A DNA stretch of 23,812 nt from a virus: the IMG/VR virus record IMGVR_UViG_3300032240_002054, positions 1-23,812 of that record. One strand, 5' to 3'. The translations under genes and the position numbers were made by a program. Of the stretch, positions 8,853 to 20,960 are shown piece by piece. Every line of letters begins with the position of its first letter. The stretch's first letter is position 1. Under the pieces are notes generated by a model. The model saw only the letters and a list, made by a program, of their open reading frames with translations, did no database searches and was not told where the DNA came from.

Positions 8853-8978
<126 letters not shown>

Positions 8979-9122
8979 GCTCCTAAGTGCTTGATTTATA
9001 TAGGGGGGCATTTTATGCAAAAAAAAATAAAAAAACTTGCTTTTTGTGGGGCCCCCTCCCAGTCCCCGTCGGACAGGACCCTTTTTGGGGCATAGGCACT
9101 TAGAAAAGCCCCCACCTCACTA

Positions 9123-9281
9123 ATGCACCACATTGGTGCATAACCTAGCCACCACATAGCCAACACACCTCATAGGTAATGCAACCTAGCGCACCACATT
9201 GGTGCATTGACTAATGCACTATGTTGGTGCATTGGCTAAGTGCTAGTGTGGTGTGTTGGTGGGGCGCACCACATTGGTGCA
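9123..9281. repeat. Four near-copies of a dyad, GCACCACATTGGTGC core
   Basis: Perfect or near-perfect dyads occur at 9123-9141 (ATGCACCACATTGGTGCAT), 9191-9206, 9214-9232 (one half changed, ATGCACTATGTTGGTGCAT) and 9266-9281. Two copies are followed by a longer direct repeat, GGTGCATTGGCTAAGTGCT, at 9226 and 9276. The 15-19 bp length with a three-base centre fits a dimeric repressor or activator operator. The irregular 70/20/50-base spacing also fits initiator-binding iterons. Confidence 0.8.
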
Positions 9282-9374
9282 TTGGCTAAGTGCTGGTGTG
9301 GTGATGCGGGTGCGAGAGCTTGTCTAGTGATGTGGCGAATTGGTGCTACTTAATAGCAATATGGGTTCTACACG

Positions 9375-9500: not shown

Positions 9501-10088
9501 ATGCAAACACTAAACAGAGAAGCGTATCTTAACTACATTACAGATACATATGCCCGCCCTCACTTTCAAGCTAAGGGCTACACCATCCCCGCCAATGTGC
9601 GTATGTCATGCTCACTTACAAGCCGTAAGAAAGCAATAGGACAATGTTGGTCTAGCGAAGCAAGCGAAGATAAGCACTTTGAAATATTCATTCACCCATC
9701 ACTAGCTGATTCTGTTGAGGTAATAGATACACTCATACATGAGTTATGCCATGCAACAGTAGGCAATCAAGCGGGTCATGGTAAGGTGTTTAAACAATGC
9801 GCCCTTTCAGTTGGCTTACAAGGTCAGATGAGATCAGCAAGCGCAAGCCCTGAATTAAAAGCCATCATTCAATCATGGGTATCAGAAGCGGGACAATATC
9901 CCCATGCACCCCTCACACAGTCAGGCATCAAGAAGCAATCAACCCGCATGATTAAATGTGTATGCTCTCATTGTGGCTATCAGGTTTATACAAGTAAGAA
10001 GTGGATAGAAGTAGTCCCGCCATCATGCCCTGATAATGAGTGTGAAGCATTCGGGTGGTCTATGAATGTAGGCACATCTGACCAATAA
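9501..10088 (+). CDS. SprT-like zinc metalloprotease
   Basis: 195 aa. The protease motif HELCH lies at 80-84 with a third zinc ligand in GHG (His93). A C-terminal zinc ribbon has C-V-C-x2-C (153-158) and C-x4-C (176-181). The order protease core then zinc ribbon, and the length, match bacterial SprT and its phage relatives. SprT-family proteins are related to Spartan, which degrades proteins cross-linked to DNA; the role in phages is not settled. The start has GAGGAA before the ATG. It is the first gene of the rightward operon, so it is probably expressed early. It contains the first GTTTAAAC site (9788). Confidence 0.85.
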   Translation: MQTLNREAYLNYITDTYARPHFQAKGYTIPANVRMSCSLTSRKKAIGQCWSSEASEDKHFEIFIHPSLADSVEVIDTLIHELCHATVGNQAGHGKVFKQCALSVGLQGQMRSASASPELKAIIQSWVSEAGQYPHAPLTQSGIKKQSTRMIKCVCSHCGYQVYTSKKWIEVVPPSCPDNECEAFGWSMNVGTSDQ

Positions 10089-10095
10089 ACTAACA

Positions 10096-10111
10096 GGGGG
10101 CGCAAGCCCCC
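10096..10111 (+). promoter_or_regulatory. GGGGGC-GCAA-GCCCCC hairpin between two genes
   Basis: A perfect 6-bp G/C stem closed by a GCAA (GNRA-type) tetraloop, 8 bases after the SprT-like stop and just before the AAGGA site of the next gene. There is no T-tract, so it is unlikely to be a classic terminator. It could be an mRNA stability or processing element. Confidence 0.6.
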
Positions 10112-10126
10112 ACTAAGGAATATATT

Positions 10127-10276
10127 ATGATGAGAATTTATAAAGTGTTTTATAGGGGAACAGGCAATTTTGAATTGATAGATGCTTTCAGCCCGCATCA
10201 AGCCAAGTTATTTATAGCACTCAAAAACAATCTACCATTGACCGCACTACATCGCTTGAGAGCAGAGAGAGCATAA
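10127..10276 (+). CDS. Small basic protein, unknown
   Basis: 49 aa, MMRIYKVFYRGTGNFELIDA then SPHQAKLFIALKNNLPLTAL and a basic HRLRAERA end. The first ATG has AAGGA six to seven bases upstream, which supports both the gene and its start. It sits between the SprT-like gene and the next small gene with a three-base gap, in the same operon. The pattern resembles short phage proteins that begin with two beta strands followed by a helix. No function can be assigned. Confidence 0.6.
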   Translation: MMRIYKVFYRGTGNFELIDAFSPHQAKLFIALKNNLPLTALHRLRAERA

Positions 10277-10279
10277 ACC

Positions 10280-10522
10280 ATGACAAACCTATCAGTAAAA
10301 CCAATCGCAAGCAATATGACACTATTGGAAACCCCTAAGCATATTGTCTTATTTAGTTATGCAACACCAGTAGCAAGTTTTGATAAGGCTACATATTCAT
10401 TTAATCGAACCGCTAAAAGGTGGAGCATGACAACATCTAGGCACATCAACAAGTGGCTAGATGGTGCAAAGGCAGTAGAACAACCACAGGACTATTTTGA
10501 CAATCTACTAGGGAGTGTTTAA
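10280..10522 (+). CDS. Unknown small phage protein
   Basis: 80 aa. The central part, HIVLFSYATPVASFD then SFNRTAKRWSMTTSRHINKW, resembles a short uncharacterised protein seen in many phage genomes, with a TSRHINKWL-like core. I know no function for it. It is soluble, alpha/beta, with no catalytic motif visible. Its stop codon is inside a GTTTAAAC site (10517-10524), and the next ATG follows after two bases. GGGAG just before the site probably serves as ribosome binding site for the next gene. Confidence 0.75.
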   Translation: MTNLSVKPIASNMTLLETPKHIVLFSYATPVASFDKATYSFNRTAKRWSMTTSRHINKWLDGAKAVEQPQDYFDNLLGSV

Positions 10523-10524
10523 AC

Positions 10525-10704
10525 ATGACAATATATTTAATTGAAGGCACACAATCGTCTTATGATGATGCAGAGCAATATTTTATCAATTTTAGCGGGT
10601 TTGATAAGTATGATGCTATTGAATTGTTTAGGAATGAAGATGCAGAGTTTATTATGGATAATTGCCCCGACATTGAAATTTTAACCAACACCGAAAGCGT
10701 TTAA
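10525..10704 (+). CDS. Small acidic protein, unknown
   Basis: 59 aa (MTIYLIEGTQSSYDDAEQYF...), acidic, probably alpha/beta. It starts one base after a GTTTAAAC site and itself ends on TAA inside the next one (10699-10706). GGGAG about nine bases upstream supports the start. No domain is recognised. The gene belongs to a run of six very short genes between the SprT-like gene and the ATPase. Confidence 0.65.
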   Translation: MTIYLIEGTQSSYDDAEQYFINFSGFDKYDAIELFRNEDAEFIMDNCPDIEILTNTESV

Positions 10705-10707
10705 ACC

Positions 10708-10782
10708 ATGTCAGACCATATAAAAGCTCTTATGTTAGCCATCATATTGACCGCCATCATTTTATGGGGAACAACCTTATGA
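10708..10782 (+). CDS. Micro-protein with one membrane helix
   Basis: 24 aa: a short polar start (MSDHIKAL) and then one hydrophobic helix (MLAIILTAIILWGTTL) to the stop. It starts one base after a GTTTAAAC site, with GAAAG upstream, and its stop overlaps the next start as ATGA. Very small single-span proteins are common in phages, but the length makes this call tentative. No function is visible. Confidence 0.45.
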   Translation: MSDHIKALMLAIILTAIILWGTTL

Positions 10783-10919
10783 GTGCGGGTGATCGGGTCT
10801 TATGGTGCGGATTTGACCCCGCCACAGTTATAAATATAGCGGGTGAATGGGCTACTATCAGATTTGATGATACCCACACTCAAACTATTGTAAACATTAA
10901 ACACTTGGAGGTAGTTTAA
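10779..10919 (+). CDS. Small beta-rich protein, unknown
   Basis: 46 aa (MSAGDRVLWCGFDPATVINI...AGEWATIRFDDT...IKHLEVV), predicted as a small beta-barrel. The pattern of a GDRV turn, alternating hydrophobics and a W-A-x-I-R-F strand resembles small KOW/SH3-like domains, but this is only a fold impression. It overlaps the preceding gene by ATGA and ends on TAA inside GTTTAAAC (10914-10921). GGAGGT at its 3' end serves the next gene. Confidence 0.55.
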   Translation: MSAGDRVLWCGFDPATVINIAGEWATIRFDDTHTQTIVNIKHLEVV

Positions 10920-10921
10920 AC

Positions 10922-11020
10922 ATGACCAAAGATGATTTTTATTGCACTTTGCTACTCATAGGGTTATTCCTAGTATTTTGTTTTGCCCCCGATCTGTATA
11001 TTCCATCATTCCAACAGTAA
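10922..11020 (+). CDS. Micro-protein with one membrane helix
   Basis: 32 aa: MTKDDFYC, then a hydrophobic segment (TLLLIGLFLVFCFA) and a short PDLYIPSFQQ tail. GGAGGT lies about ten bases before the ATG, with the GTTTAAAC site in between, which supports translation. It is probably an inner-membrane single-span protein. Function unknown. Another reading of the same DNA extends the following ATPase upstream; I prefer this small gene because of its strong ribosome binding site. Confidence 0.5.
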   Translation: MTKDDFYCTLLLIGLFLVFCFAPDLYIPSFQQ

Positions 11021-11037
11021 AAACGAAAGGTATTACA

Positions 11038-12117
11038 ATGTCAGACCTCTATAAATCCCTATCACTTGCAGACACCGCCAATTTGATTATGGCAGTTGGG
11101 GACACAACCACAGTATTAGCACAAGGCGAGATGGGGATAGGTAAATCCTCTATCCTATCTATCCTTAAAGCCAAGCTAGGTGCAACACACCATTTTTGCT
11201 ATGGTGACATGACTACCAAAGATGTAGGGGATTTTTTAGTCCCGAAGATAAGAAGTTTAAACGATACCGAAGTATGTAGTTTTATTCCTAACGAGGAATT
11301 TGGCTTTCACTTTGATAAGCCCATTGTGTTGATGCTTGATGAGATCGGCAAGGCATCAAAGGCAGTCATGAACGCTTGCCTACGCTTAATGCTAGAACGC
11401 AAGTTAGGCACATATTCACTACCCGAAGGGTCTATTGTATTTGCCACTACAAATCTTGCCAATGAAGCAATAGGAGACAATTTGCCACCCCATGCCCGCA
11501 ATAGAATCTCAGTTGTGAAAGTGCGTAAACCATCAGCCGATGAGTGGATTGAATGGGCTTTAGATAATGAGATAGCCCCCGAAGTATTGATGACAGTCAA
11601 ACAATTTCCGCAGATGTTGGCATCATTTGAGGATTTTAACAACCCATCGGACAATGAATACATCTACGACCCACGCACACCCCGCCCCGCATTTTGCACT
11701 CCACGCAGTTTAAACAAGGCATCGGACATTATTAAAAAAGCCAAGCCACTTGGCACAGACATCATGGCACACGCATTAAAAGGCACGATTGGCAACAGAG
11801 CCACATACGATATGCTATCTATTATTCAATTAACCGATGAGCTACCAACATGGGAACAGATCATCAAAGAGCCAACCAAAACCCAAGTGCCACAGTCCCC
11901 AAGTGCAGTTTGTATGTTGGTCTATTCGGCTATTCAACAAGTAGAAAAGGACAATATCAACAAGTGGATTGAATACATGAACCGCTTGACTAAAGAAGCA
12001 CAGGGCTTGTTTGCCACATCAGTAATGAGAACAAGCAAAAAGACAACAGTTGGAACATCACAGGGGTTTATAAAATGGGCTACCGCAAACAATTACCTAT
12101 TCGCACAGAGCAATTAA
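11038..12117 (+). CDS. MoxR-type AAA+ ATPase
   Basis: 359 aa. Walker A is GEMGIGKS (30-37), Walker B is VLMLDE (97-102), sensor 1 is FATTN (135-139), and a likely arginine finger lies in HARNRI (152-157). The C-terminal half is helical. MoxR ATPases act as chaperone-like remodellers together with a partner carrying a VWA domain. Such a partner is encoded 550 bases downstream (12666-13838), so the two probably form one machine. The start at ATG 11038 has AAAGG at the right distance. It carries two GTTTAAAC sites (11255, 11708), both read as Ser-Leu-Asn. Confidence 0.85.
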   Translation: MSDLYKSLSLADTANLIMAVGDTTTVLAQGEMGIGKSSILSILKAKLGATHHFCYGDMTTKDVGDFLVPKIRSLNDTEVCSFIPNEEFGFHFDKPIVLMLDEIGKASKAVMNACLRLMLERKLGTYSLPEGSIVFATTNLANEAIGDNLPPHARNRISVVKVRKPSADEWIEWALDNEIAPEVLMTVKQFPQMLASFEDFNNPSDNEYIYDPRTPRPAFCTPRSLNKASDIIKKAKPLGTDIMAHALKGTIGNRATYDMLSIIQLTDELPTWEQIIKEPTKTQVPQSPSAVCMLVYSAIQQVEKDNINKWIEYMNRLTKEAQGLFATSVMRTSKKTTVGTSQGFIKWATANNYLFAQSN

Positions 12118-12122
12118 AAGTC

Positions 12123-12329
12123 ATGGGGACTTATAGTTTCAAAATGCGTATGAACAAGATCGACCAAGAGTTTAAACATTCTTTGCAATACCGCATAACA
12201 CAGGCGGAATCGACTAAAGAAAAGCGGGAGTTGATAGCAGAGTCAAACCCTCTCTTTTATGTGTTTGGTGAAAAGTGCATGGTGTTTAAACCTTATCAAA
12301 CATACGAGGAAAACTATGGAATATTCTGA
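12123..12329 (+). CDS. Small basic protein, unknown
   Basis: 68 aa, starting MGTYSFKMRMNKIDQEF, charged and helical in the middle (QAESTKEKRELIAE) and ending KPYQTYEENYGIF. It starts five bases after the ATPase stop; a longer start inside the ATPase gene is less likely. The ribosome binding site is weak, so coupling to the ATPase is likely. It holds two GTTTAAAC sites, both read as Phe-Lys. Its end overlaps the next gene by 14 bases. Lying between ATPase and VWA gene it may be an accessory, but nothing shows this. Confidence 0.6.
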   Translation: MGTYSFKMRMNKIDQEFKHSLQYRITQAESTKEKRELIAESNPLFYVFGEKCMVFKPYQTYEENYGIF

Positions 12330-12504
12330 AATTTTTTTAATCGTATGGGCTACGATTGCCACAGTTTTAGCGATTGCTTTCCATCAAATAGCTAAAAGGC
12401 AGAAAATTAGATTGTTTATGATGGAATTTAGCCTACACGCTATCGCCCATAAAAAGGCAGAAGTGATTATCGAGGGCGATAACATCAAGGTAAGGGAGGT
12501 TTAA
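12316..12504 (+). CDS. Single-span membrane protein, unknown
   Basis: 62 aa with an N-terminal membrane helix (EIFLIVWATIATVLAIAF, residues about 5-22), then a basic stretch (HQIAKRQKIR) and a polar C-terminal domain. The positive-inside rule places the C-terminal part in the cytoplasm. GAGGAAA lies just before the ATG. It ends on TAA inside a GTTTAAAC site preceded by GGGAGG. Its place between the MoxR ATPase and the VWA gene raises the idea of a membrane anchor for that system, which is inference. Confidence 0.6.
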   Translation: MEYSEIFLIVWATIATVLAIAFHQIAKRQKIRLFMMEFSLHAIAHKKAEVIIEGDNIKVREV

Positions 12505-12507
12505 ACA

Positions 12508-12663
12508 ATGCTAAGCATAACAGACCGACAACGAGAAGCTGTAGTAGGGTATTTTTATGATTCCGAAACCGCTTACCTTGTAGATTTACTTATGAGGTAT
12601 TTGCCCGAAGATTTTATTCGTGGTATGGCAGAACGACTAACCCAAGATGACGAGGAAATTTAA
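12508..12663 (+). CDS. Small acidic helical protein, unknown
   Basis: 51 aa (MLSITDRQREAVVGYFYDSE...LLMRYLPEDFIRGMAERL...DDEEI), predicted helical and acidic. GGGAGG upstream and the tight junctions on both sides support it. It ends on TAA inside ATTTAAAC, a one-base variant of the iterated palindrome, two bases before the VWA gene. Function unknown. Confidence 0.6.
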   Translation: MLSITDRQREAVVGYFYDSETAYLVDLLMRYLPEDFIRGMAERLTQDDEEI

Positions 12664-12665
12664 AC

Positions 12666-13838
12666 ATGGCATTAACCGCAGAACAACGCATTGAAAGATG
12701 CCATATTGATTTAATGAAGCACCCGCAATTTGTAGCTTATTCGGGCATACTTATGATCGGTGAAACCAAGATAGATGACAAGATACCAACCGCTTGCACT
12801 AATGGTAAAGATATTAAATTTGGCAGAGATTTTGTGATGAGTTTAAACGACCCGCAGTTGCGAGGTTTGATATTACATGAAGCCAAGCACAAGATGTATC
12901 GCCATTTATTAACATGGAAACACTTACATAAGCAAGATGCACAGAGAGCTAACATGGCTTGCGATTTTGTGATTAACCTAGAGATTAAAGACGAATCCGA
13001 AAGGTCGCAAAAATTTGTTGTGTTGCCCGATGGCGCATTAGTCAATGAGAAGTTTAGAGGTTTAAACTCAGCCGAAGTGTTCGCATTATTACCAACGCAA
13101 CAAGGTGGTGGGGGTAGTGGTAGCGGGCAAGGTGATGGTGGTGAGGGTTTCGACGAACACGATTGGGAAGGTGCAGAGAGTTTAAACGACGAGGAAAAAA
13201 CCGCCCTAGCCAAAGAGATTGACCAAGCAATTAGGCAAGGTGCAATCTTGGCGGGTAAAGTTGGTGGTAATGTTGATCGTGCATTTACAGACCTCATGAG
13301 TGCTAAAGTAGATTGGAAAGAAGCACTAAGAGAATTTGTATCTAGCGTATCAGTTGGTAAAGACGATTCAACATGGCGAAAACCTAACCGCAGATGGCTA
13401 CAACATGACATCTATATGCCATCGACTGTTAGCGAATCTATGGGTCGAGTTGTTGTGGCGATTGATACATCGGGCAGTATTTATGGTGAGGTGTTAAACC
13501 GATTCGTAAGTGAAGTGGCTAGTGTCATGACTAACATGAATCCTGAACAAGTTGATCTATTGTATTGGGATTGTAATGTGGCGGGTCATGAGGTGTATGG
13601 TTTAAACGATGCGGATAGAATGACATCATCAACCAAGCCCAAAGGTGGGGGTGGCACAAGCCCATCTTGTATCACCAAGTATATGAGCAAGCATAAGATC
13701 GAACCAGTTTGCGCCATCATTCTTACCGATGGCTATGTAGGAAGTGATTGGGGAGGACAATGGAATTGCCCTACATTATGGACAATCACTAGCGACATCA
13801 AGTCCCCGATAGGTCAAACTATAAAGATAGAGGTGTGA
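12666..13838 (+). CDS. VWA-domain protein with metallopeptidase-like N-terminus, partner of the MoxR ATPase
   Basis: 390 aa. The N-terminal domain has HEAKH (71-75), as in the putative metallopeptidase family often written DUF2201. A glycine-rich linker (145-160) and an acidic segment follow. The C-terminal half is a VWA-like domain with a MIDAS motif DTSGS (267-271) and a second acidic site LTDG (Asp355). In bacteria such proteins bind metal through MIDAS and act as adaptors for MoxR ATPases. GAGGAA upstream supports the start. It has four GTTTAAAC sites, all read as Leu-Asn. Whether the HEAKH is catalytic is unknown. Confidence 0.8.
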   Translation: MALTAEQRIERCHIDLMKHPQFVAYSGILMIGETKIDDKIPTACTNGKDIKFGRDFVMSLNDPQLRGLILHEAKHKMYRHLLTWKHLHKQDAQRANMACDFVINLEIKDESERSQKFVVLPDGALVNEKFRGLNSAEVFALLPTQQGGGGSGSGQGDGGEGFDEHDWEGAESLNDEEKTALAKEIDQAIRQGAILAGKVGGNVDRAFTDLMSAKVDWKEALREFVSSVSVGKDDSTWRKPNRRWLQHDIYMPSTVSESMGRVVVAIDTSGSIYGEVLNRFVSEVASVMTNMNPEQVDLLYWDCNVAGHEVYGLNDADRMTSSTKPKGGGGTSPSCITKYMSKHKIEPVCAIILTDGYVGSDWGGQWNCPTLWTITSDIKSPIGQTIKIEV

Positions 13839-13839
13839 T

Positions 13840-14229
13840 ATGGGTTATAGATCAGATGTGGCTTATATGATTACATTCCATAAGCCCGAGGATTATTGGG
13901 GATTTGTAGCAGAAGCTAAATGCGACCCCGAAACACAATTATGTTTTACAGACGAAGGGTTTAAACAAAATGACGAAAAGTTAGCCATCATGTTTAGTGC
14001 TGATTCTGTTAAATGGTATCCTGATTACGAAGATGTCAAGTGTCATAGAGCATTGTGGGAAAAAGCATTAGACCGAGATGACATGGTTAAAGAAACTTGT
14101 GATGGATATTTTGCTCGTATTGGCGAGGAAACAGACGATATAGAGGAAAAGCAATTTGGCATTGAACCGCCATACGATTATATAAATATTCATAGATCAA
14201 TACGAACCTATTTTACTGAGGGAGTTTAA
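13840..14229 (+). CDS. Unknown phage protein of the MGYRSDV type
   Basis: 129 aa, MGYRSDVAYMITFHKPEDYW at the start, then a mixed alpha/beta domain with several Trp, Tyr and Cys residues and an acidic centre. Small proteins beginning MGYRSDV are frequent in phages and have no known function. GAGGTG at the end of the VWA gene supports the start, and only one base separates the two genes. It ends on TAA inside GTTTAAAC (14224-14231) after GAGGGAG. Confidence 0.7.
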   Translation: MGYRSDVAYMITFHKPEDYWGFVAEAKCDPETQLCFTDEGFKQNDEKLAIMFSADSVKWYPDYEDVKCHRALWEKALDRDDMVKETCDGYFARIGEETDDIEEKQFGIEPPYDYINIHRSIRTYFTEGV

Positions 14230-14231
14230 AC

Positions 14232-15176
14232 ATGGGTTATTACAGACAGTCATGCAGTCCATACGATGTGCAAGCCAATCAAGGTGGCAGATTTACCTTT
14301 GACACAATTAAAAAACGCTATCAAGATATTACTCCATTAAGGGGTAAACGCAAGGCAGAAAATGTTAGACCAATCAACCGCAGAGATCGGTCATGGGAAC
14401 GCATCATTGAGGTGAATGAGAATGAATATTATGTGTCATACGATTGCTACAAATATCGCACTCATCACAATAAAGCAATCACTTGGAAGATGAGTGAGGG
14501 TATGGAATATACGACGATTCATACACCACGCAAAACATGGTCTAGCACAGACCCTACCGAGCTATATCCTAGCTATTTATCATCCTCGTCTATTTTTTGG
14601 TTTTACAATTTTAATTTGCCACCTGATTTTGGCATGGTCAATCATCGTGCTAATAAGTATGTTCGATATGACAATAAGTTTTATTCTATTGAGTTGGGTG
14701 ATATTACTTTCCAACGCAAACAGGGCGATAATCATTGGCTTCCATTAGTAGTGCATAGAGAGTTTAAACATACCCTTGACCGCACACAGACCAAACAGTT
14801 AAGGGAAAGTATTAAGCCATTTATGGAATACTACGATCTTATGTCCGAATTAGTGGAAACTAAATGGGAGTATGGCAATCCGATCTACAAAGCAGTTGTT
14901 GGTGATGACAACCGAATGATTTATGCAGAGGAAGTATTAGAGTTGTTTAAACCGAGAACCAATGGTGATGTGCCTGATTCGTGGCTTGGTATGGTGGAAC
15001 GCTATAAACATAGACTTACCCGTTTTAATTACAGAGATCACAATAACACTCAGGAACGACACAAGTTGCCTAAAGAGATATGCAACGATCTATTTAAAAT
15101 CGTTAAGCCATGTAAAGCAACAGAAGTGCCAATCGGAACATTAACACACGACAAATACAAAGGATGGTTTAGATAA
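14232..15176 (+). CDS. Unknown 314-aa protein rich in Tyr, Arg and His
   Basis: A 314-aa soluble protein, strongly basic and aromatic (for example WKMSEGMEYTTIHTPRKTW and HRLTRFNYRDHNN). No membrane segment, no nucleotide-binding motif and no recognised nuclease signature. It has two GTTTAAAC sites (14762, 14945), both read as Phe-Lys. It begins directly after a GTTTAAAC with the ribosome binding site GAGGGAG before it. The basic, aromatic make-up could fit nucleic-acid binding, but this is weak evidence. I do not recognise the family. Confidence 0.7.
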   Translation: MGYYRQSCSPYDVQANQGGRFTFDTIKKRYQDITPLRGKRKAENVRPINRRDRSWERIIEVNENEYYVSYDCYKYRTHHNKAITWKMSEGMEYTTIHTPRKTWSSTDPTELYPSYLSSSSIFWFYNFNLPPDFGMVNHRANKYVRYDNKFYSIELGDITFQRKQGDNHWLPLVVHREFKHTLDRTQTKQLRESIKPFMEYYDLMSELVETKWEYGNPIYKAVVGDDNRMIYAEEVLELFKPRTNGDVPDSWLGMVERYKHRLTRFNYRDHNNTQERHKLPKEICNDLFKIVKPCKATEVPIGTLTHDKYKGWFR

Positions 15177-15177
15177 A

Positions 15178-16008
15178 ATGTCAGATAACAAAATTGAATC
15201 AGTAAAATTTCAAGGTGTAGATGCAGTTAAAGCATTGATTGACCTAGCAGATGCTATTAGTAAGGTAGTCCCCGAAGTGTCGTTTAAACCATGCAATATG
15301 AACACTTGGGGAGTTGTCAAAGATTTATACCCCAATGGTATATGTGATGGGCTTCATGTTTACCACGCAAGTGATACGAACAACCATATTGGGGTTATTG
15401 AGGTATCTAATTACTACAATAATTGTAAAGTTAAATATGGCATTACTAGCATTAACATTGATGATGGTAGGCACACCTATGGTGGTGAGGGTGCATACAA
15501 ATACTCTATCCATGCCAAAAATATTGTGCGGGTGGCAAAGAAGGTGTTTAAACCATTTACATTCGATCAGATTGCAGACAGGGCAAGACGAAAGTTTAGG
15601 CAAGAGGTAGATAGCATTGGTTCTAGGGCTACATGGAATATGCGAAACAATACTTGTTCAGACATCGACATATTTAAAGATGACTTGATAAATTTACACG
15701 AAAAGGGGCATACTTTTAGAAGTCCGAGAGTTGCAAAGATGGTAGAGTTTTTAGTGAACAATCAAGAGGATATTAAAAAGTATGTCAATTACAATCCCGA
15801 TCACTACTTTGTTTTGGTGAAAGACAATGAAGTGCAGTATCGTTTAAACTCAGTCAAAGGTGCAGAACCATACAAACTACCGAACAAAGATGCCCTACCC
15901 GATTACATCAAAGGCAAGTTGTTTGTGTTGGACATCGCAGACAAGCAGTCATTTGTAGAGGATGTTGGTCTAAAAGAAAACGATGGTGCGTATTGGATTA
16001 TTGCATGA
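15178..16008 (+). CDS. Unknown 276-aa protein sharing a C-terminal module with a neighbour
   Basis: 276 aa, alpha/beta, with a charged helix about 125-150 and no membrane segment. The last 43 residues (DALPDYIKGKLFVLDIADKQ...VEDVGLKEND..YWIIA) resemble the end of the 117-aa protein at 16211-16564 (AALPQWVKDRVAVLQICEQG...VEGVGQKV...FYVIE). Both keep LP, a Trp/Tyr, VLxI, VExVG and a final aromatic strand. The module may bind a shared partner. Three GTTTAAAC sites occur (15282, 15546, 15842). The ATG follows the previous stop by one base. Confidence 0.7.
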   Translation: MSDNKIESVKFQGVDAVKALIDLADAISKVVPEVSFKPCNMNTWGVVKDLYPNGICDGLHVYHASDTNNHIGVIEVSNYYNNCKVKYGITSINIDDGRHTYGGEGAYKYSIHAKNIVRVAKKVFKPFTFDQIADRARRKFRQEVDSIGSRATWNMRNNTCSDIDIFKDDLINLHEKGHTFRSPRVAKMVEFLVNNQEDIKKYVNYNPDHYFVLVKDNEVQYRLNSVKGAEPYKLPNKDALPDYIKGKLFVLDIADKQSFVEDVGLKENDGAYWIIA

Positions 16009-16208
16009 CCACTAGGTATCGTTATGTAATGAACAAAACCACGAATGATGTGGGGGTAGCCGATCTTCCTGATTGGCTAACTTTCAATGAGAAGCCCCCA
16101 CGATCATTTGATATGTGGAGTTATAAACACAGAGGATTTTTAAATGTATCTACCGATAACTATGTTGAAATAACTAAAGAAGTAGCCGATATAATGAAAG
16201 GTGTTTAA
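16005..16208 (+). CDS. Small unknown protein ending VADIMKGV
   Basis: 67 aa from the ATG that overlaps the preceding stop (ATGA); an internal ATG seven codons later is also possible. It contains DVGVADLPDWL and ends EVADIMKGV, similar to the KAVADIMIGIE end of the 68-aa protein at 16667-16873. It ends on TAA inside GTTTAAAC (16203-16210), with AAAGG before it. Function unknown. Confidence 0.6.
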   Translation: MTTRYRYVMNKTTNDVGVADLPDWLTFNEKPPRSFDMWSYKHRGFLNVSTDNYVEITKEVADIMKGV

Positions 16209-16210
16209 AC

Positions 16211-16564
16211 ATGGTAATGTATAGATCAAGTGTAGTAATAGAACGAATGGATGACATTATTATGTCGGGCAATAGCCCCACCATAGACCCGCCATATTTT
16301 ATGCAGATGGTAAGTGAAGCCCTATGCACACCAATGGAACAGGTGTGGAGGGTCAAGTTAAATGAGGACAACACCGCAGAGTTGTATAGTTTTGCGCTAC
16401 CGCTAACCGAAAAAAATTTACCCGCAGCGAAGTGTTTAAACATCGCAGCACTACCTCAATGGGTTAAAGATCGAGTGGCAGTATTGCAGATATGCGAACA
16501 GGGGGAAATTGTAGAAGGTGTGGGTCAGAAGGTATCAGAGAGGGTGTTTTATGTCATCGAATAA
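16211..16564 (+). CDS. Unknown protein, C-terminal module shared with the 276-aa protein
   Basis: 117 aa. The N-terminal half is helical (VIERMDDIIMSG...FMQMVSEALC). The C-terminal 45 residues carry the LP-x-W-V-K...VLQI...VEGVG...FYVIE pattern also seen at the end of the protein at 15178-16008. This looks like duplication of a small domain within the operon. It has one GTTTAAAC at 16434, read as Leu-Asn. Its last 14 bases overlap the next small gene. Confidence 0.65.
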   Translation: MVMYRSSVVIERMDDIIMSGNSPTIDPPYFMQMVSEALCTPMEQVWRVKLNEDNTAELYSFALPLTEKNLPAAKCLNIAALPQWVKDRVAVLQICEQGEIVEGVGQKVSERVFYVIE

Positions 16565-16670
16565 ATATGATGATTTTGGTGAGCTAGTATGGAAAGAGCC
16601 AAAACGAAAACGCATAAAAAAATTTACATTTAATGAAGTGTTTAAACTACTCGGAGAAGCCTTAATATGA
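16551..16670 (+). CDS. Very small basic protein, unknown
   Basis: 39 aa, MSSNKYDDFGELVWKEPKRK then RIKKFTFNEVFKLLGEALI, with a strongly basic centre. It overlaps the preceding gene by 14 bases and the next by ATGA, the usual packing in this operon. Its only GTTTAAAC (16640) is read as Phe-Lys. There is a modest ribosome binding site (AGAGAGGG) upstream. Possible nucleic-acid-binding or host-modulating peptide, not recognised. Confidence 0.5.
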   Translation: MSSNKYDDFGELVWKEPKRKRIKKFTFNEVFKLLGEALI

Positions 16671-16873
16671 GTAAATTAGGACAATACTACATCAACGAAT
16701 ATGATGAGTTAGGGATGCTAACTAATTATGAAGGTGGTGATGTGGCTTTAGTGTCGTGGCATAGACGAAACAATAAGGGTAAATTTGTATTCAAAAACGA
16801 GGAATTAAGATACTTGCCATACCTGACCCCAATAGATAAAGCAGTTGCCGACATTATGATAGGAATTGAATGA
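16667..16873 (+). CDS. Small unknown protein ending KAVADIMIGIE
   Basis: 68 aa, probably a beta-rich domain (NYEGGDVALVSWHRR...GKFVFKNEELRYL) with a final helix AVADIMIGIE that matches the end of the protein at 16005-16208. CGGAGAAG upstream supports the ATG. It is the last gene of the uninterrupted small-gene run before a secreted protein and the sigma factor. It carries no GTTTAAAC. Function unknown. Confidence 0.65.
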   Translation: MSKLGQYYINEYDELGMLTNYEGGDVALVSWHRRNNKGKFVFKNEELRYLPYLTPIDKAVADIMIGIE

Positions 16874-16874
16874 T

Positions 16875-17135
16875 ATGAAACTGGTTTTATTGTTTGCCTT
16901 ACTTTTAACCATTGGAATCACTAATTCAGCGACCCTCACAACCGACAACGACATAGGTGGAAAAACGACCCTTACAGACAAACAATGTAAATTTAACAGT
17001 ATTTTTAAGGAAGCAACATCAACCAATTCAGTAGGTGAGATAGCCTATGCTTGCTACTGGGTGCAAGATGAGTATGTTTACTTTATAACTAAAGATCATA
17101 TAATAAGGCGATTACCCCGCAAAAAATTCATATAA
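16875..17135 (+). CDS. Small secreted or periplasmic protein with signal peptide
   Basis: 86 aa from the ATG at 16875; an upstream TTG would add three residues. The N-terminus MKLVLLFALLLTIGITNSA is a typical Sec signal peptide with likely cleavage after the Ser-Ala. The mature part is about 67 residues with two cysteines (KQC, YACYW) that could form a disulfide, and it ends basic (RRLPRKKFI). It may act in the periplasm, for example in superinfection exclusion, but that is a guess. AGGA lies ten bases before the start. It is followed by a promoter. Confidence 0.65.
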   Translation: MKLVLLFALLLTIGITNSATLTTDNDIGGKTTLTDKQCKFNSIFKEATSTNSVGEIAYACYWVQDEYVYFITKDHIIRRLPRKKFI

Positions 17136-17155
17136 TTTTCACAATGTGGTATAAT
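17127..17155 (+). promoter_or_regulatory. Sigma-70-type promoter for the sigma factor gene
   Basis: TTCATA (17127-17132), a 17-base spacer and TATAAT (17150-17155) preceded by TGG, an extended -10. It is a near-consensus host promoter at the start of the sigma gene, so this gene can be read independently of the long operon. Confidence 0.65.
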
Positions 17156-17181
17156 ATAGTTTTCACCACTTGAAAACTATA
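17155..17181 (+). promoter_or_regulatory. 11-bp inverted repeat over the start site of the sigma gene, candidate operator
   Basis: TATAGTTTTCA (17155-17165) and TGAAAACTATA (17171-17181) are perfect reverse complements around CCACT. The left half starts within the -10 box, and the right half ends on the A of the ATG start codon. Transcription would begin inside the repeat, so a DNA operator that blocks polymerase is more likely than an mRNA hairpin. Confidence 0.6.
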
Positions 17182-17747
17182 TGCAAGAAAATGACATTTT
17201 AAGCGACTATCTACAATCCCTATATGGTATAGAGCCACTTACAACCGATCAAGAGCATGATCTAGCCCGCAAAATTAAAGAGGGTGACGATGATGCTCTT
17301 GAAAAGTTGATTACCCACAATCTTAGGTTTGTTGTCTATATAGCTAGGCAGATGAGCTATTGGGAAAGAAGCAAAATACCACCTGAAGATATTATTGCCA
17401 TTGGAAACCAAGCCCTCTTTGAGTGTGCTAGAAAATGGAAGCCAAGAAATAGGGCAAAGTTTGCCACTTATGCCAAATCATTTATAAGGCGGGGAATCCA
17501 AAGAGAAGTGGACAATACCGCCAACATCATTCGACTACCAATAAACATCATGGAAGCCATTAAGCGAATGAATTATAACGAAAGAGCATTAGCTCAAATT
17601 TTAGGCAGAAAACCAAAAAATAAAGAATTGGCAAAAATAATGGGGATTTCAGAATCAAGGGTCAGTCAATTACAAGCCTACATAGCCCGAGAACCTATAT
17701 CAATAGACAACCTAAACCAAGAAAAAATAGAGGAAAATGATGATTAG
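17181..17747 (+). CDS. Short sigma-70 family factor without recognisable region 4
   Basis: 188 aa. Region 1.2-like at 5-35 (LSDYLQSLYGIEPLTTDQEH), region 2.1-2.2 at 41-84 (LITHNLRFVVYIARQM, DIIAIGNQALFECARKW), regions 2.3-2.4 at 92-120 (FATYAKSFIRRGIQ..NIIRLP), and a region 3-like helical domain at 121-170 (NKELAKIMGISESRVSQLQ). The -35-reading region 4 is missing; the protein ends in an acidic tail. It should bind core polymerase through region 2 and read -10-like elements. It has its own promoter and an operator-like repeat but no clear ribosome binding site. It could direct the phage late promoters. The family is sure, the target is inference. Confidence 0.85.
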   Translation: MQENDILSDYLQSLYGIEPLTTDQEHDLARKIKEGDDDALEKLITHNLRFVVYIARQMSYWERSKIPPEDIIAIGNQALFECARKWKPRNRAKFATYAKSFIRRGIQREVDNTANIIRLPINIMEAIKRMNYNERALAQILGRKPKNKELAKIMGISESRVSQLQAYIAREPISIDNLNQEKIEENDD

Positions 17748-18045
17748 TCTAAACGAAGATCAGAAAAAAGCATATGACCGCTTTATAAAAGCAAGGGACA
17801 TTATTTATAAACGCAAAAATAATTGGGTTAGGGCGGGGGATATAAAGACAACAGTAGATATTGTTGGTCTAAACCATCCACTATACGAAGCCAACCTTGA
17901 ATACGAGGAATACAAGGAAGCGTTTAAACAATGGCTGGAAGTTGAACCCGCATTTAGAGATGCAGAACGCATGAGATCAACAAGAGGGGATTATGGAGCA
18001 GTTGATTCGTGGGATGAAAAACCGAGTAAAATCAAGGAGTTATGA
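17740..18045 (+). CDS. Small charged protein, unknown
   Basis: 101 aa from the second of two adjacent ATGs, chosen because AGAGG then lies about six bases upstream; the first ATG is at 17737. Helical and charged (LNEDQKKAYDRFIKARDIIY..., LEYEEYKEAFKQWLEVEPAF) with a polar C-terminal tail. Its start overlaps the sigma stop codon, so the two are translationally coupled. It could be a sigma partner such as a co-activator, by position only. It carries one GTTTAAAC (17922), read as Phe-Lys. Confidence 0.65.
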   Translation: MISLNEDQKKAYDRFIKARDIIYKRKNNWVRAGDIKTTVDIVGLNHPLYEANLEYEEYKEAFKQWLEVEPAFRDAERMRSTRGDYGAVDSWDEKPSKIKEL

Positions 18046-18254
18046 TGTCATTAACAGAAAAAGGTAGGGTGGTTTGCACCGATATTTACGATGCTGATGG
18101 AAATTTAACGCGTTGTGAAGCATATACGAGAGATGAAAAATTTGTATTACAAGCAATTTGGGATGAGAGGGATGAGCAGACCTCAGCCAACCGAGAGGAA
18201 TTTCGAAAGTGGTTCTACCGCCACCTTGAACAAAGTGGATATGCAGTAGATTGA
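18045..18254 (+). CDS. Small protein, unknown, last gene of the central operon
   Basis: 69 aa from the second ATG of ATGATG, five bases after a strong AAGGAG; the first ATG at 18042 would be too close. It begins with a beta-type stretch (GRVVCTDIYDADGNLTRCEA) and ends in an acidic helix (EEFRKWFYRHLEQSGYAVD). It is followed directly by the last GTTTAAAC site and a terminator. Not recognised. Confidence 0.6.
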   Translation: MSLTEKGRVVCTDIYDADGNLTRCEAYTRDEKFVLQAIWDERDEQTSANREEFRKWFYRHLEQSGYAVD

Positions 18255-18279
18255 GTTTAAACGGGCTTTACAGCCGTTT

Positions 18280-18311
18280 AAAAGGGTCGGGGTATAGCTG
18301 ACCCTTTTTTT
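18280..18311 (+). terminator. Rho-independent terminator of the central operon
   Basis: Stem AAAAGGGTC (18280-18288) pairs with GACCCTTTT (18300-18308) around an 11-base loop and runs into a T-tract to 18311. It stands 26 bases after the last gene of the block. A second stem, TTTAAACGG/CCGTTTAAA, overlaps its left side and could compete with it. Confidence 0.8.
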
Positions 18312-18410
18312 CTTTTTAAAACAGCTCAAAAGCCATTTAAACAAGCCACTGACCCTTTTTTGGCTGGGTGGCAGGTAGACTTGACCCTTTTTTCCCCGAC
18401 TTTTAGGAAA

Positions 18411-18530
18411 TTTGTACTAGTAGTACTAGTAGTATGGGTCTAATCAACTCTTTCTTTATTTTTATTTTTTTAAATTAATAAAAAAGAAAAAAGATAAAGT
18501 AAGGGGTACTACTGGTACTACTGGTACAAA
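18411..18530 (+). repeat. Long repeat, right copy (inverted relative to 8853-8978)
   Basis: Arms at 18411-18434 (tandem GTACTAGTA units) and 18507-18530 (GTACTACTG units) are near reverse complements of each other around an AT-rich centre. The reverse complement of the whole element matches the left copy almost throughout, except the A/T centre. It lies 108 bases before the primase-helicase gene. In both copies a TTTGCATTRGT follows about 55-65 bases beyond the gene-proximal arm. Confidence 0.9.
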
Positions 18531-18638: not shown

Positions 18639-20960
18639 ATGAAGCCAACAGCATTATCAGTCAATTTCAACAACATCCCTATGGATTTGAAGCAAACTCC
18701 AAGGTGGGTGCTTTGGAAGTTTACTGAAGTGGGTGAGGAAGGAAACAAACGCTGGTCTAAATTGCCAGTTCAGTCCAACGGTTTATCAGCCTCCTCCACC
18801 AATCAGGCAACATGGGCAGACTTCCTAACTGTCCAAGCTGCGTATCAAAAGAACCCCCAATTATATTCCGGTGTTGGTTTTGTGTTTTCCGATGAGGATA
18901 ACTTTGTTGGTGTTGACCTAGATGACTGTTTTGACTCCGCGACTCAGCGGTTCACTAATGCTGCAATGCAGCAATTAGCAGAGTCTATTGATGGTTATAT
19001 GGAAGTGTCACCATCTGGTACAGGAGTAAAGATTTTTACAAGAGCTGACTTAAAAGCGGCTCATGTTGACCATAGCATAGGGTTAGAGGTTTATCCACAG
19101 GGCAGATACTTTACGGTTACGGGCCATCACCTTAGTGGAACCATCCCCAACGACCCACAAAACCTATCAGCCGTGGTGCCAGCCCGCACAGTGCACATGA
19201 CAGGTGACTCGTTTGAGGATTACACTCCACCAGTTCTTGATTATGATTTAGCCAGAGTAGAAACCGAGATCTTAGCTAAACTTGACCCAGACGAAGGGTA
19301 TGCAAGCTGGCTGGGTGTAGGTTTTGCCTTACATCATCAGTTCAGAGGCGACCCTGAGGCTTGTGATTTATGGGATCGTTGGTCATACAAAGATGGTGGT
19401 TCGACAAGCTACTGCGCCAGCGGTCAGAACTCATGCTACGGTAAATGGAAGACGTTTAAGAAAGAGTCAGGATGCACACTGCGCTCACTAATTTTTAAGG
19501 TCAATCTAAAGGAAAAGCAAGAAGCCTTGGCGAGGGGCGAGATCATTCTCGACCAAGGCGCAATGAACCACGCTCGCACGTTTCTTGACAGTTACTATGC
19601 TAGTGAGGAAGGTTACCGTTTAGTTCATTATGCCGAAGACTTTCACATTTATGTGGGCACTCACTACGAGATTATTGAAGAAGCCACGATCAGATCTAAA
19701 CTGTATTCTTTGTTAGATAAGTGCAAAAAGACAGGGCGTAAAGGTGAATTGCAAGCTTTTAATCCAACTCCAGCAAGCGTAAGTGCTGCTTTAGATGCCA
19801 TCAAGTCAATAGTGCATTTACCAAACCACGTCAATACCAAACCACCAATTTGGTTTGAGCAGTATGCTACCAATAAGCCACATGCAGCAGATTTGGTTAG
19901 TTTAAAGAACGGCATTTTTCACCTTAAAGATTATTTGATGTTGCCACACTCATTAGGATTCTTTACACAGAACTCATTGCCGTTTGAATACAACCCAAAC
20001 GCACAGTGCCCTCAGTGGATATCTTTCTTACAATCAGTATGGAACGATGACCCACAATCAATTGAATGTTTACAAGAAATGTTTGGTTATATACTATCTG
20101 GGGATACTCGCCAACAGAAGTTTTTTAACATTATTGGTCCGCGTCGTAGCGGTAAAGGTACTATCAATAAAGTATTAGTAGCATTACTTGGACAACATAA
20201 CACCGTAGCACCACAACTGGAGGAACTTTGTGATACATTTGGACTACAACCTTGGCTTGGAAAGCTTTTGGCTAGTTTTACGGACGCTCGTGCTCCTGAG
20301 CGCAACCGTGGTGCTGTTGTATCTCAGCTCCTACGTATTGTCGGAGGTGATACTGTTACCGTTAATAGAAAAAATAAAGAAGCATGGAGTGGTTATCTTC
20401 CTACTCGCCTTGTTGTTTATTCTAATGAAGCTTTACAGTTAACAGAAAACTCCAACGCATTGGTGGGGCGTATGATTGTATTAAAAATGTCACGTTCGTT
20501 TTATGACAACGAAGATACAGATTTGTACCATAGATTAGAAAAAGAATTAGCAGGGATCTTTAATTGGGCCATGGAAGGATTGCGCCGTCGTTTAGAACGC
20601 GGAGGTCATTTTGTTCAACCCGAAACAGGTAGATCATTGCTTGAGTTAATGTCTGAATTGGGCAACCCAATAGGCTCGTTTGTTGAAGACGCTTTAATGT
20701 TTGACCCCCATGGCTATGTATCTAAAGATGATGTGTTTGCTTGTTACAAACGTTGGGCGATTAAAAAGTCCATACCACCCGGCACAGAACTTGCTTTTAA
20801 ACGTAGATTCTTAGCTGCAACCCAAGAGCATAGGATTATGGCGGACGTTGATAGAACAAACGGTAATAGAACACATATCTACCGAGGAATTAAATTAAAT
20901 CAAGAAGCACAAGCTTATATTAATACTGTTGAGCCGCTTAACGAAGGTGTATTTAATTAA
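18639..20960 (+). CDS. Primase-helicase (primase-polymerase plus D5/P4-type SF3 helicase)
   Basis: 773 aa. The N-terminal primase-polymerase domain (about 10-185) has the catalytic VDLDD (Asp93, 95, 96) and a conserved SPSGTGVKIF strand. A PriCT-2-like linker follows (about 205-285, DEGYASWLGVGFALHH..FRGDPEACDLWDRWS). The SF3 helicase domain has Walker A GPRRSGKGT (500-508), and a winged-helix-like end (about 690-750, SKDDVFACYKRWA) follows. This layout matches phage and plasmid primase-helicases of the P4/NrS-1 type, which prime and unwind at the replication fork. GAAGGAT lies before the ATG. It is the first gene of the rightward operon behind the right long repeat. Confidence 0.9.
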   Translation: MKPTALSVNFNNIPMDLKQTPRWVLWKFTEVGEEGNKRWSKLPVQSNGLSASSTNQATWADFLTVQAAYQKNPQLYSGVGFVFSDEDNFVGVDLDDCFDSATQRFTNAAMQQLAESIDGYMEVSPSGTGVKIFTRADLKAAHVDHSIGLEVYPQGRYFTVTGHHLSGTIPNDPQNLSAVVPARTVHMTGDSFEDYTPPVLDYDLARVETEILAKLDPDEGYASWLGVGFALHHQFRGDPEACDLWDRWSYKDGGSTSYCASGQNSCYGKWKTFKKESGCTLRSLIFKVNLKEKQEALARGEIILDQGAMNHARTFLDSYYASEEGYRLVHYAEDFHIYVGTHYEIIEEATIRSKLYSLLDKCKKTGRKGELQAFNPTPASVSAALDAIKSIVHLPNHVNTKPPIWFEQYATNKPHAADLVSLKNGIFHLKDYLMLPHSLGFFTQNSLPFEYNPNAQCPQWISFLQSVWNDDPQSIECLQEMFGYILSGDTRQQKFFNIIGPRRSGKGTINKVLVALLGQHNTVAPQLEELCDTFGLQPWLGKLLASFTDARAPERNRGAVVSQLLRIVGGDTVTVNRKNKEAWSGYLPTRLVVYSNEALQLTENSNALVGRMIVLKMSRSFYDNEDTDLYHRLEKELAGIFNWAMEGLRRRLERGGHFVQPETGRSLLELMSELGNPIGSFVEDALMFDPHGYVSKDDVFACYKRWAIKKSIPPGTELAFKRRFLAATQEHRIMADVDRTNGNRTHIYRGIKLNQEAQAYINTVEPLNEGVFN

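Follow-up and report, generated by a model that had tools for sequence, protein, structure and literature searches.

A highly iterated phage palindrome accompanies an SprT-like metalloprotease gene and is a candidate binding site of its product

The phage fragment analysed here (IMG/VR record IMGVR_UViG_3300032240_002054, positions 1 to 23,812; this whole stretch is called the window) carries 25 exact copies of the 8-bp palindrome GTTTAAAC, all within one block (9788-18262), which raises the question of what reads so many copies of a single short site. The data point to the SprT-like zinc metalloprotease gene at 9501-10088, which had not been singled out in an earlier interpretation made from the letters of the window (the sequence-only reading). 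We propose, with a probability of roughly 0.6, that the SprT-like protein reads the site through its C-terminal ribbon and that the sites are dispersed operators.

The 25 copies of the sequence-only reading were confirmed by exact count, with none in the rest of the window, and its estimate of fewer than one copy by chance agrees with dinucleotide shuffles of the window (mean 0.79 copies, largest 3). GTTTAAAC is the commonest 8-mer palindrome of the window, the runner-up having only 4 copies. Both variant copies reported earlier were found, as ATTTAAAC at 12658 and 18335, and a recount of the reading frames gave the same tally (Leu-Asn 8, Phe-Lys 10, Val-stop 6, with the 12499 site scored as Val-stop after hand correction of the open reading frame (ORF) start, and one non-coding copy at 18255). 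The claim of selection at the nucleic-acid level was right: with synonymous codons shuffled in the ORFs of the block (500 shuffles), no similar count was reached (mean 3.4, maximum 7, vs the 18 copies counted in that ORF set, from which some small ORFs are omitted and in which a few small-ORF boundaries are imprecise). The copies are spaced more evenly than by chance, on average 312 bp apart (coefficient of variation 0.45) and with no gap below 100 bp, where 6.3 such gaps are expected. In the close relatives (contigs G001, G002, G006 and G007) 69-92% of the shared sites are kept, compared with 13-20% for comparable 8-mers in the same genes. The operon and its sites are as follows.

9501-18312, plus strand: rightward operon with all GTTTAAAC sites; terminator-like hairpin plus T-run near 18284-18312
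9788-9795: GTTTAAAC site 1, within the SprT-like gene (V-F-K codons)
10517-10524: GTTTAAAC site 2, at the stop codon of the preceding gene, ahead of an ATG
10699-10706: GTTTAAAC site 3
10914-10921: GTTTAAAC site 4, with a ribosome-binding-site-like GGAGG on one side and an ATG on the other
11255-11262: GTTTAAAC site 5
11708-11715: GTTTAAAC site 6
12170-12177: GTTTAAAC site 7
12284-12291: GTTTAAAC site 8
12499-12506: GTTTAAAC site 9
12658-12665: ATTTAAAC variant, ahead of the ATG of the gene at 12666
12841-12848: GTTTAAAC site 10, within the metallopeptidase-VWA gene; same position in most of the closest relatives
13060-13067: GTTTAAAC site 11
13180-13187: GTTTAAAC site 12
13600-13607: GTTTAAAC site 13
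13959-13966: GTTTAAAC site 14
14224-14231: GTTTAAAC site 15
14762-14769: GTTTAAAC site 16
14945-14952: GTTTAAAC site 17
15282-15289: GTTTAAAC site 18
15546-15553: GTTTAAAC site 19
15842-15849: GTTTAAAC site 20
16203-16210: GTTTAAAC site 21
16434-16441: GTTTAAAC site 22
16640-16647: GTTTAAAC site 23
17922-17929: GTTTAAAC site 24
18255-18262: GTTTAAAC site 25, non-coding, after the last stop codon and ahead of the terminator-like hairpin
18335-18342: ATTTAAAC variant, non-coding, past the terminator-like hairpin

Relatives found through the VWA protein carry either 14-40 copies (L001-L019 and L025-L029) or 0 (L020-L024 and L030-L033). In the longer relative contigs (44-66 kb) the sites are dense from the start of the early operon to before the primase and sparse elsewhere; equal density in the flanking operons, which the sequence-only reading had named as evidence against its claim, is not seen. 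The logo of the window clade (482 site contexts) shows extra, partly dyad-symmetric preferences at -6, -5, +12 and +13, part of which may be accounted for by codon context; the full site of this clade is thus near 20 bp, and GTTTAAAC would be part of a longer, partly dyad-symmetric element. Among the one-letter variants of GTTTAAAC, only GTCTAAAC, ATTTAAAC and GGTTAAAC reach twofold or more.

Homologs of the SprT-like protein (SprT below) are found in cultured phages (Pseudanabaena phage Pan1 and Dinoroseobacter, Arthrobacter, Microbacterium and Streptomyces phages), and GTTTAAAC or GTTTACAC is top-ranked in most SprT phages in unbiased 8-mer scans. GTTTAAAC comes first in Pan1 (8 copies vs 0.01 expected) and R5C, and GTTTACAC/GTGTAAAC in Reedo (28 vs 0.2), Zeta1847 (22 vs 0.08), Bogota (17 vs 0.02) and Powerpuff (18 vs 0.1). 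By these rankings, the site exists as a palindrome and in a form made asymmetric by one letter, and some phages (L331, L347) have both. As a separate observation, the DnaA-box-like TATCCACA is among the most enriched 8-mers in the SprT phage group of L332 and L354.

Initially, the sites went together with every one of the genes for the sigma-70-like factor, f7, f13, the primase, SprT and f10. A scan based on the sigma alignment gave many phages with sigma, f7, f13 and primase but without SprT, and their loci carry 0-2 copies, except for four short contigs (L227, L232, L273 and L275) that end within the operon, the SprT region being outside them. None of 166 phage contigs without SprT is site-enriched, and seven sister-phage contigs of 58-68 kb without an SprT match hold 1-4 copies, about as many as of the reversed control pattern. 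A substitute iterated motif was sought in the site-free relatives and none was evident. Conversely, SprT homologs with 37-47% identity, in phages without the sigma, MoxR, VWA, f10 and primase families of the window, are mostly accompanied by many sites. In the comparison of 14 site-rich lineages, SprT is the only gene family that none of them lacks; two families present in 10 of the 14 are minus-strand ORFs and apparently antisense artefacts. Two further candidates were rejected: homologs of the f10 protein (10280-10522) without SprT have 0-2 sites, and relatives with the MoxR/VWA block but without SprT have 0.

These comparisons make it very probable that the sites pair with the SprT gene, and their joint occurrence across very different phages and prophages indicates that the site is most likely the binding site of the SprT protein. 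A protein site had been listed among the possibilities of the sequence-only reading, rightly so. The relevant parts of the gene are the following.

9501-10088, plus strand: SprT-like zinc metalloprotease gene, proposed site reader, first in the operon
9738-9752, plus strand: HELCH (HExxH) zinc/catalytic motif, residues 80-84, with His93 as the third ligand
9930-10031, plus strand: C-terminal ribbon (KKQSTRM...CxxCGY...SKKW), residues 144-177, the part proposed to read DNA

The product matches Pfam SprT-like (PF10263; E-value 7e-9, 36 bits vs a cut-off of 25.6) and PHROG 6361 (E-value 5e-43), and the HExxH motif is present in 145 of the 145 SprT homologs scanned, its alignment columns being invariant. 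The AlphaFold model (monomer, mean predicted local distance difference test score 82) is SprT-like over residues 3-131 and less certain in the ribbon. The top matches in the structure comparison are SPRTN (6mdw/6mdx), abylysin from P. abyssi and small archaeal zincins, with middling Z scores of ~8; Foldseek returned no match under an E-value of 0.001, and the SprT profile gave only weak chance matches to Rubisco among the sequences of solved structures. C-terminal to the protease domain, the alignment of SprT proteins from site-rich phages shows a shared pattern, KKQxTR(M/L)xK..C..CGYxxR.S.KW.

At the level of sequence comparison, the sites depend on an SprT with an intact ribbon motif. The 104 SprT loci with a QxTR-type motif hold 782 copies of GTTTAAAC (21.5 expected) and 197 of GTTTACAC (25.6 expected), and 81 of them are enriched at p<1e-3, whereas the 39 loci without it hold 7 copies of GTTTAAAC (7.5 expected) and one is enriched. 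The association over these 143 loci with distinct proteins, including two exceptions (L319 and L337) with the motif and no excess, has a Fisher p of 2e-17, which is optimistic since the ribbon-motif pattern was adjusted several times after the groups had been seen. A tree built from the protease part has four changes of the motif, no fewer than three of them forced by well-supported branches, so the link between site and motif is not the effect of one lineage. In Epa43, MW2, Dismas and contig L355 the ribbon motif is lost and there is no site excess; the same holds for the SprT homologs in Polynucleobacter, Limnohabitans and bacteria related to these. Direct reading of the site by the C-terminal ribbon is, on this pattern, probable.

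The placement of the sites bears on what they may do. In Reedo and Powerpuff, 9 of the 46 sites lie 0-2 bp after a sigma70-like -10 box (TTG-N-TAnnnT; 0.02 expected), one of them at the promoter of sprT itself, and intergenic sites are in excess (12 of 28 and 11 of 18, respectively, in genomes with 9-11% non-coding DNA). Inspection by eye also places the sprT-proximal sites next to promoter-like boxes in Bogota, Mica, Pan1 and R5C. In respect to orientation, the forward:reverse ratios are 20:8 in Reedo, 16:6 in Zeta1847, 12:6 in Powerpuff and 6:11 in Bogota, the window site being palindromic. Zeta1847, Bogota and the window clade show intergenic and promoter placement less strongly, their sites being mostly intragenic. 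The layout in Reedo and Powerpuff is that of operators plus stoperators. In mycobacteriophages, the protein bound at stoperators impedes RNA polymerase.

In the proposed mechanism, GTTTAAAC and its variant GTTTACAC would be the recognition site of the phage SprT, contacted by the C-terminal zinc ribbon that the QxTR-type motif marks. SprT would occupy promoters at some sites, including its own, and at others, along transcribed DNA, would impede RNA polymerase, so that repression is combined with a block of elongation, as we infer. The chances that the sites serve transcription control are in our view about even. In temperate actinophages SprT could be the missing immunity repressor, and in window-like phages its role would be to damp the early operon or shut it off. 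Powerpuff is temperate, forms lysogens and is homoimmune; no repressor could be identified by the authors who described it (PMC8758107).

The resemblance is closest to the repressor-stoperator systems of mycobacteriophage L5 type and Streptomyces phage R4, with many copies of one short site over the phage genome, far above chance, located both at promoters and inside transcribed regions and linked to a single gene of the phage; in actinophages the site has an asymmetric form. The sequence-only reading had set stoperators aside as asymmetric; they are the closest parallel in layout, and the actinophage form GTTTACAC is itself asymmetric. The window site differs in being palindromic and very dense in one operon, and repression is here a proposal. 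The known repressors of this kind are helix-turn-helix DNA-binding proteins and not metalloproteases (PMC9283540, PMC10276819).

Several observations weigh against SprT as the reader of dispersed operators, beside the optimistic Fisher p. With an intact ribbon, L319 and L337 are not enriched and ep3 is only weakly so. In the CGYxxR motif the ribbon of the window has Tyr where most others have Arg. Overall, sites show a weak excess in the 200 bp upstream of sprT, the sprT leader of the window is without a site, and no site of Zeta1847 or Bogota directly follows a -10 box. Integrase or resolvase matches are absent from eight window-clade contigs, some of them fragments; provided that the contigs are complete enough, the system would there control the early operon rather than lysogeny. 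Finally, a pure repressor would not need the HExxH motif that is intact in every homolog, so cleavage probably matters, be it of a partner, of DNA-bound proteins or of SprT itself.

The invariant protease motif also gives the main rival, which we hold to be unlikely, though the strongest of the alternatives: SprT would bind the sites so that its protease can strip phage DNA of proteins that are crosslinked or tightly attached to it, be they host silencers, defence proteins or stalled complexes; the sites would be loading or self-marking points and regulation secondary. The even spacing of ~300 bp along the operon, the sites within genes and in phages without integrase, and a fold nearest SPRTN, Wss1 and other minimal zincins are in line with it, but the actinophage sites lie directly on promoters and in excess between genes, and those of the window clade avoid the late operon. 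The DNA-protein-crosslink proteases SPRTN, Wss1 and SprT share the fold, the HExxH..H motif and a C-terminal zinc-ribbon-like region; no iterated site is known to have been reported for their DNA binding, whereas the phage SprT gene accompanies a specific 8-bp one.

A further version, which we regard as rather improbable, is a self-cleaving, damage-sensing repressor: SprT would silence the element until single-stranded DNA or crosslinks trigger its own protease, and all operators would open together. If true, lysogeny or early genes would be switched in response to DNA damage with neither RecA-stimulated cleavage of a repressor nor a separate antirepressor.

Pairs of a metalloprotease and a repressor are known, and a separate repressor could read the sites, with SprT merely cleaving it as in ImmA-ImmR, IrrE-DdrO and CapP-CapH, where a zinc metalloprotease is likewise linked to transcription control. 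CapP and PprI/IrrE appear low in the SprT fold-match lists, and several actinophages have genes annotated as DNA-binding close to sprT; however, in those systems a separate repressor reads the DNA, no second family is common to the 14 site-rich lineages, and the sites vanish with loss of the ribbon motif though the protease motif stays. We consider this very unlikely.

The idea that the site is a binding or pausing element of the sigma-70-like factor (17181-17747) fitted the first 19 site-rich relatives, all of which have the gene, and is contradicted by dozens of relatives with sigma but neither SprT nor sites and by distant SprT phages that have sites but not this sigma family. A host-driven motif (a HIP1-like palindrome, a restriction-modification site or a host nucleoid site) is contradicted as well: short iterated palindromes have cyanobacterial parallels, and HIP1 is itself a highly iterated octamer within genes, but HIP1 is host-wide, has another sequence and no partner phage gene, the hosts here span cyanobacteria, alpha- and betaproteobacteria and actinobacteria, and sister phages without SprT lack the sites.

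Counts over bacterial assemblies gave no genome-wide enrichment in hosts: chromosomes carrying SprT elements are not enriched in GTTTAAAC. The copies cluster on the SprT contig, with 6 of 6 in the Streptomyces antimicrobicus assembly (6.5 Mb), 6 of 7 in Sphingobium chlorophenolicum, 5 of 7 in S. vermicomposti and 6 of 13 in Caballeronia fortuita (whole assemblies), and the 12 copies in Polynucleobacter with a motif-less SprT are scattered. The earlier interpretation thus held for selection on the nucleic acid and for a protein site as a possibility, with no support for a host-mimicking or HIP1-like origin or for setting stoperators aside. SprT-bearing elements were also noted in many Sphingomonadales assemblies (L449-L487), with 1-5 GTTTAAAC each at ~63% GC, one of them within the SprT gene.

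In the window as a whole, genes for packaging, portal and other structural functions run leftward; a control region and the rightward operon come next, the operon in the order SprT-like gene, f10, AAA ATPase, DUF2201 metallopeptidase-VWA, small genes and sigma-70-like factor, followed by the terminator-like hairpin and a P4-type primase. The gene at 12666-13838 is labelled HNH endonuclease by PHROG 1314 and DUF2201 metallopeptidase plus VWA-like domain by Pfam; it adjoins the AAA ATPase, as a MoxR-VWA type pair. The sigma-70-like protein has regions 1.2, 2 and 3 without a full region 4, and is kept across a large phage group, with or without sites. Two AT-rich regions (8853-8978 and 18409-18530) hold phage-specific GTACTACTAGTACTACTAGTAC-like iterons and form long inverted copies on either side of the operon (43 nt at 98%, 63 nt at 90%); relatives have the same layout with other iterons. 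The pair resembles a replication origin in two parts, which would serve the primase at 18639; P4 itself has one made of ori and crr. Upstream of sprT (9113-9292) there is a cluster of TGCACCACATTGGTGCA-type hairpins, where relatives have GGTGCGGTGCAACATA repeats.

The open-access literature (most subscription journals and all bioRxiv preprints lie outside it) held nothing relevant on GTTTAAAC/GTTTACAC phage repeats or on SprT as a phage regulator. We know of no earlier case of an SprT-family protease as a sequence-specific DNA-binding protein, and this would be the first. If the proposal is true, a large, functionally blank phage family (SprT-like, PHROG 6361) gains a DNA target that is readable from sequence alone and holds in phages of cyanobacteria, proteobacteria and actinobacteria. 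For actinophages of clusters AZ and EH, SprT would be a concrete candidate for the missing repressor, and in some bacterial viruses it may fill the place of a control system so far missing.

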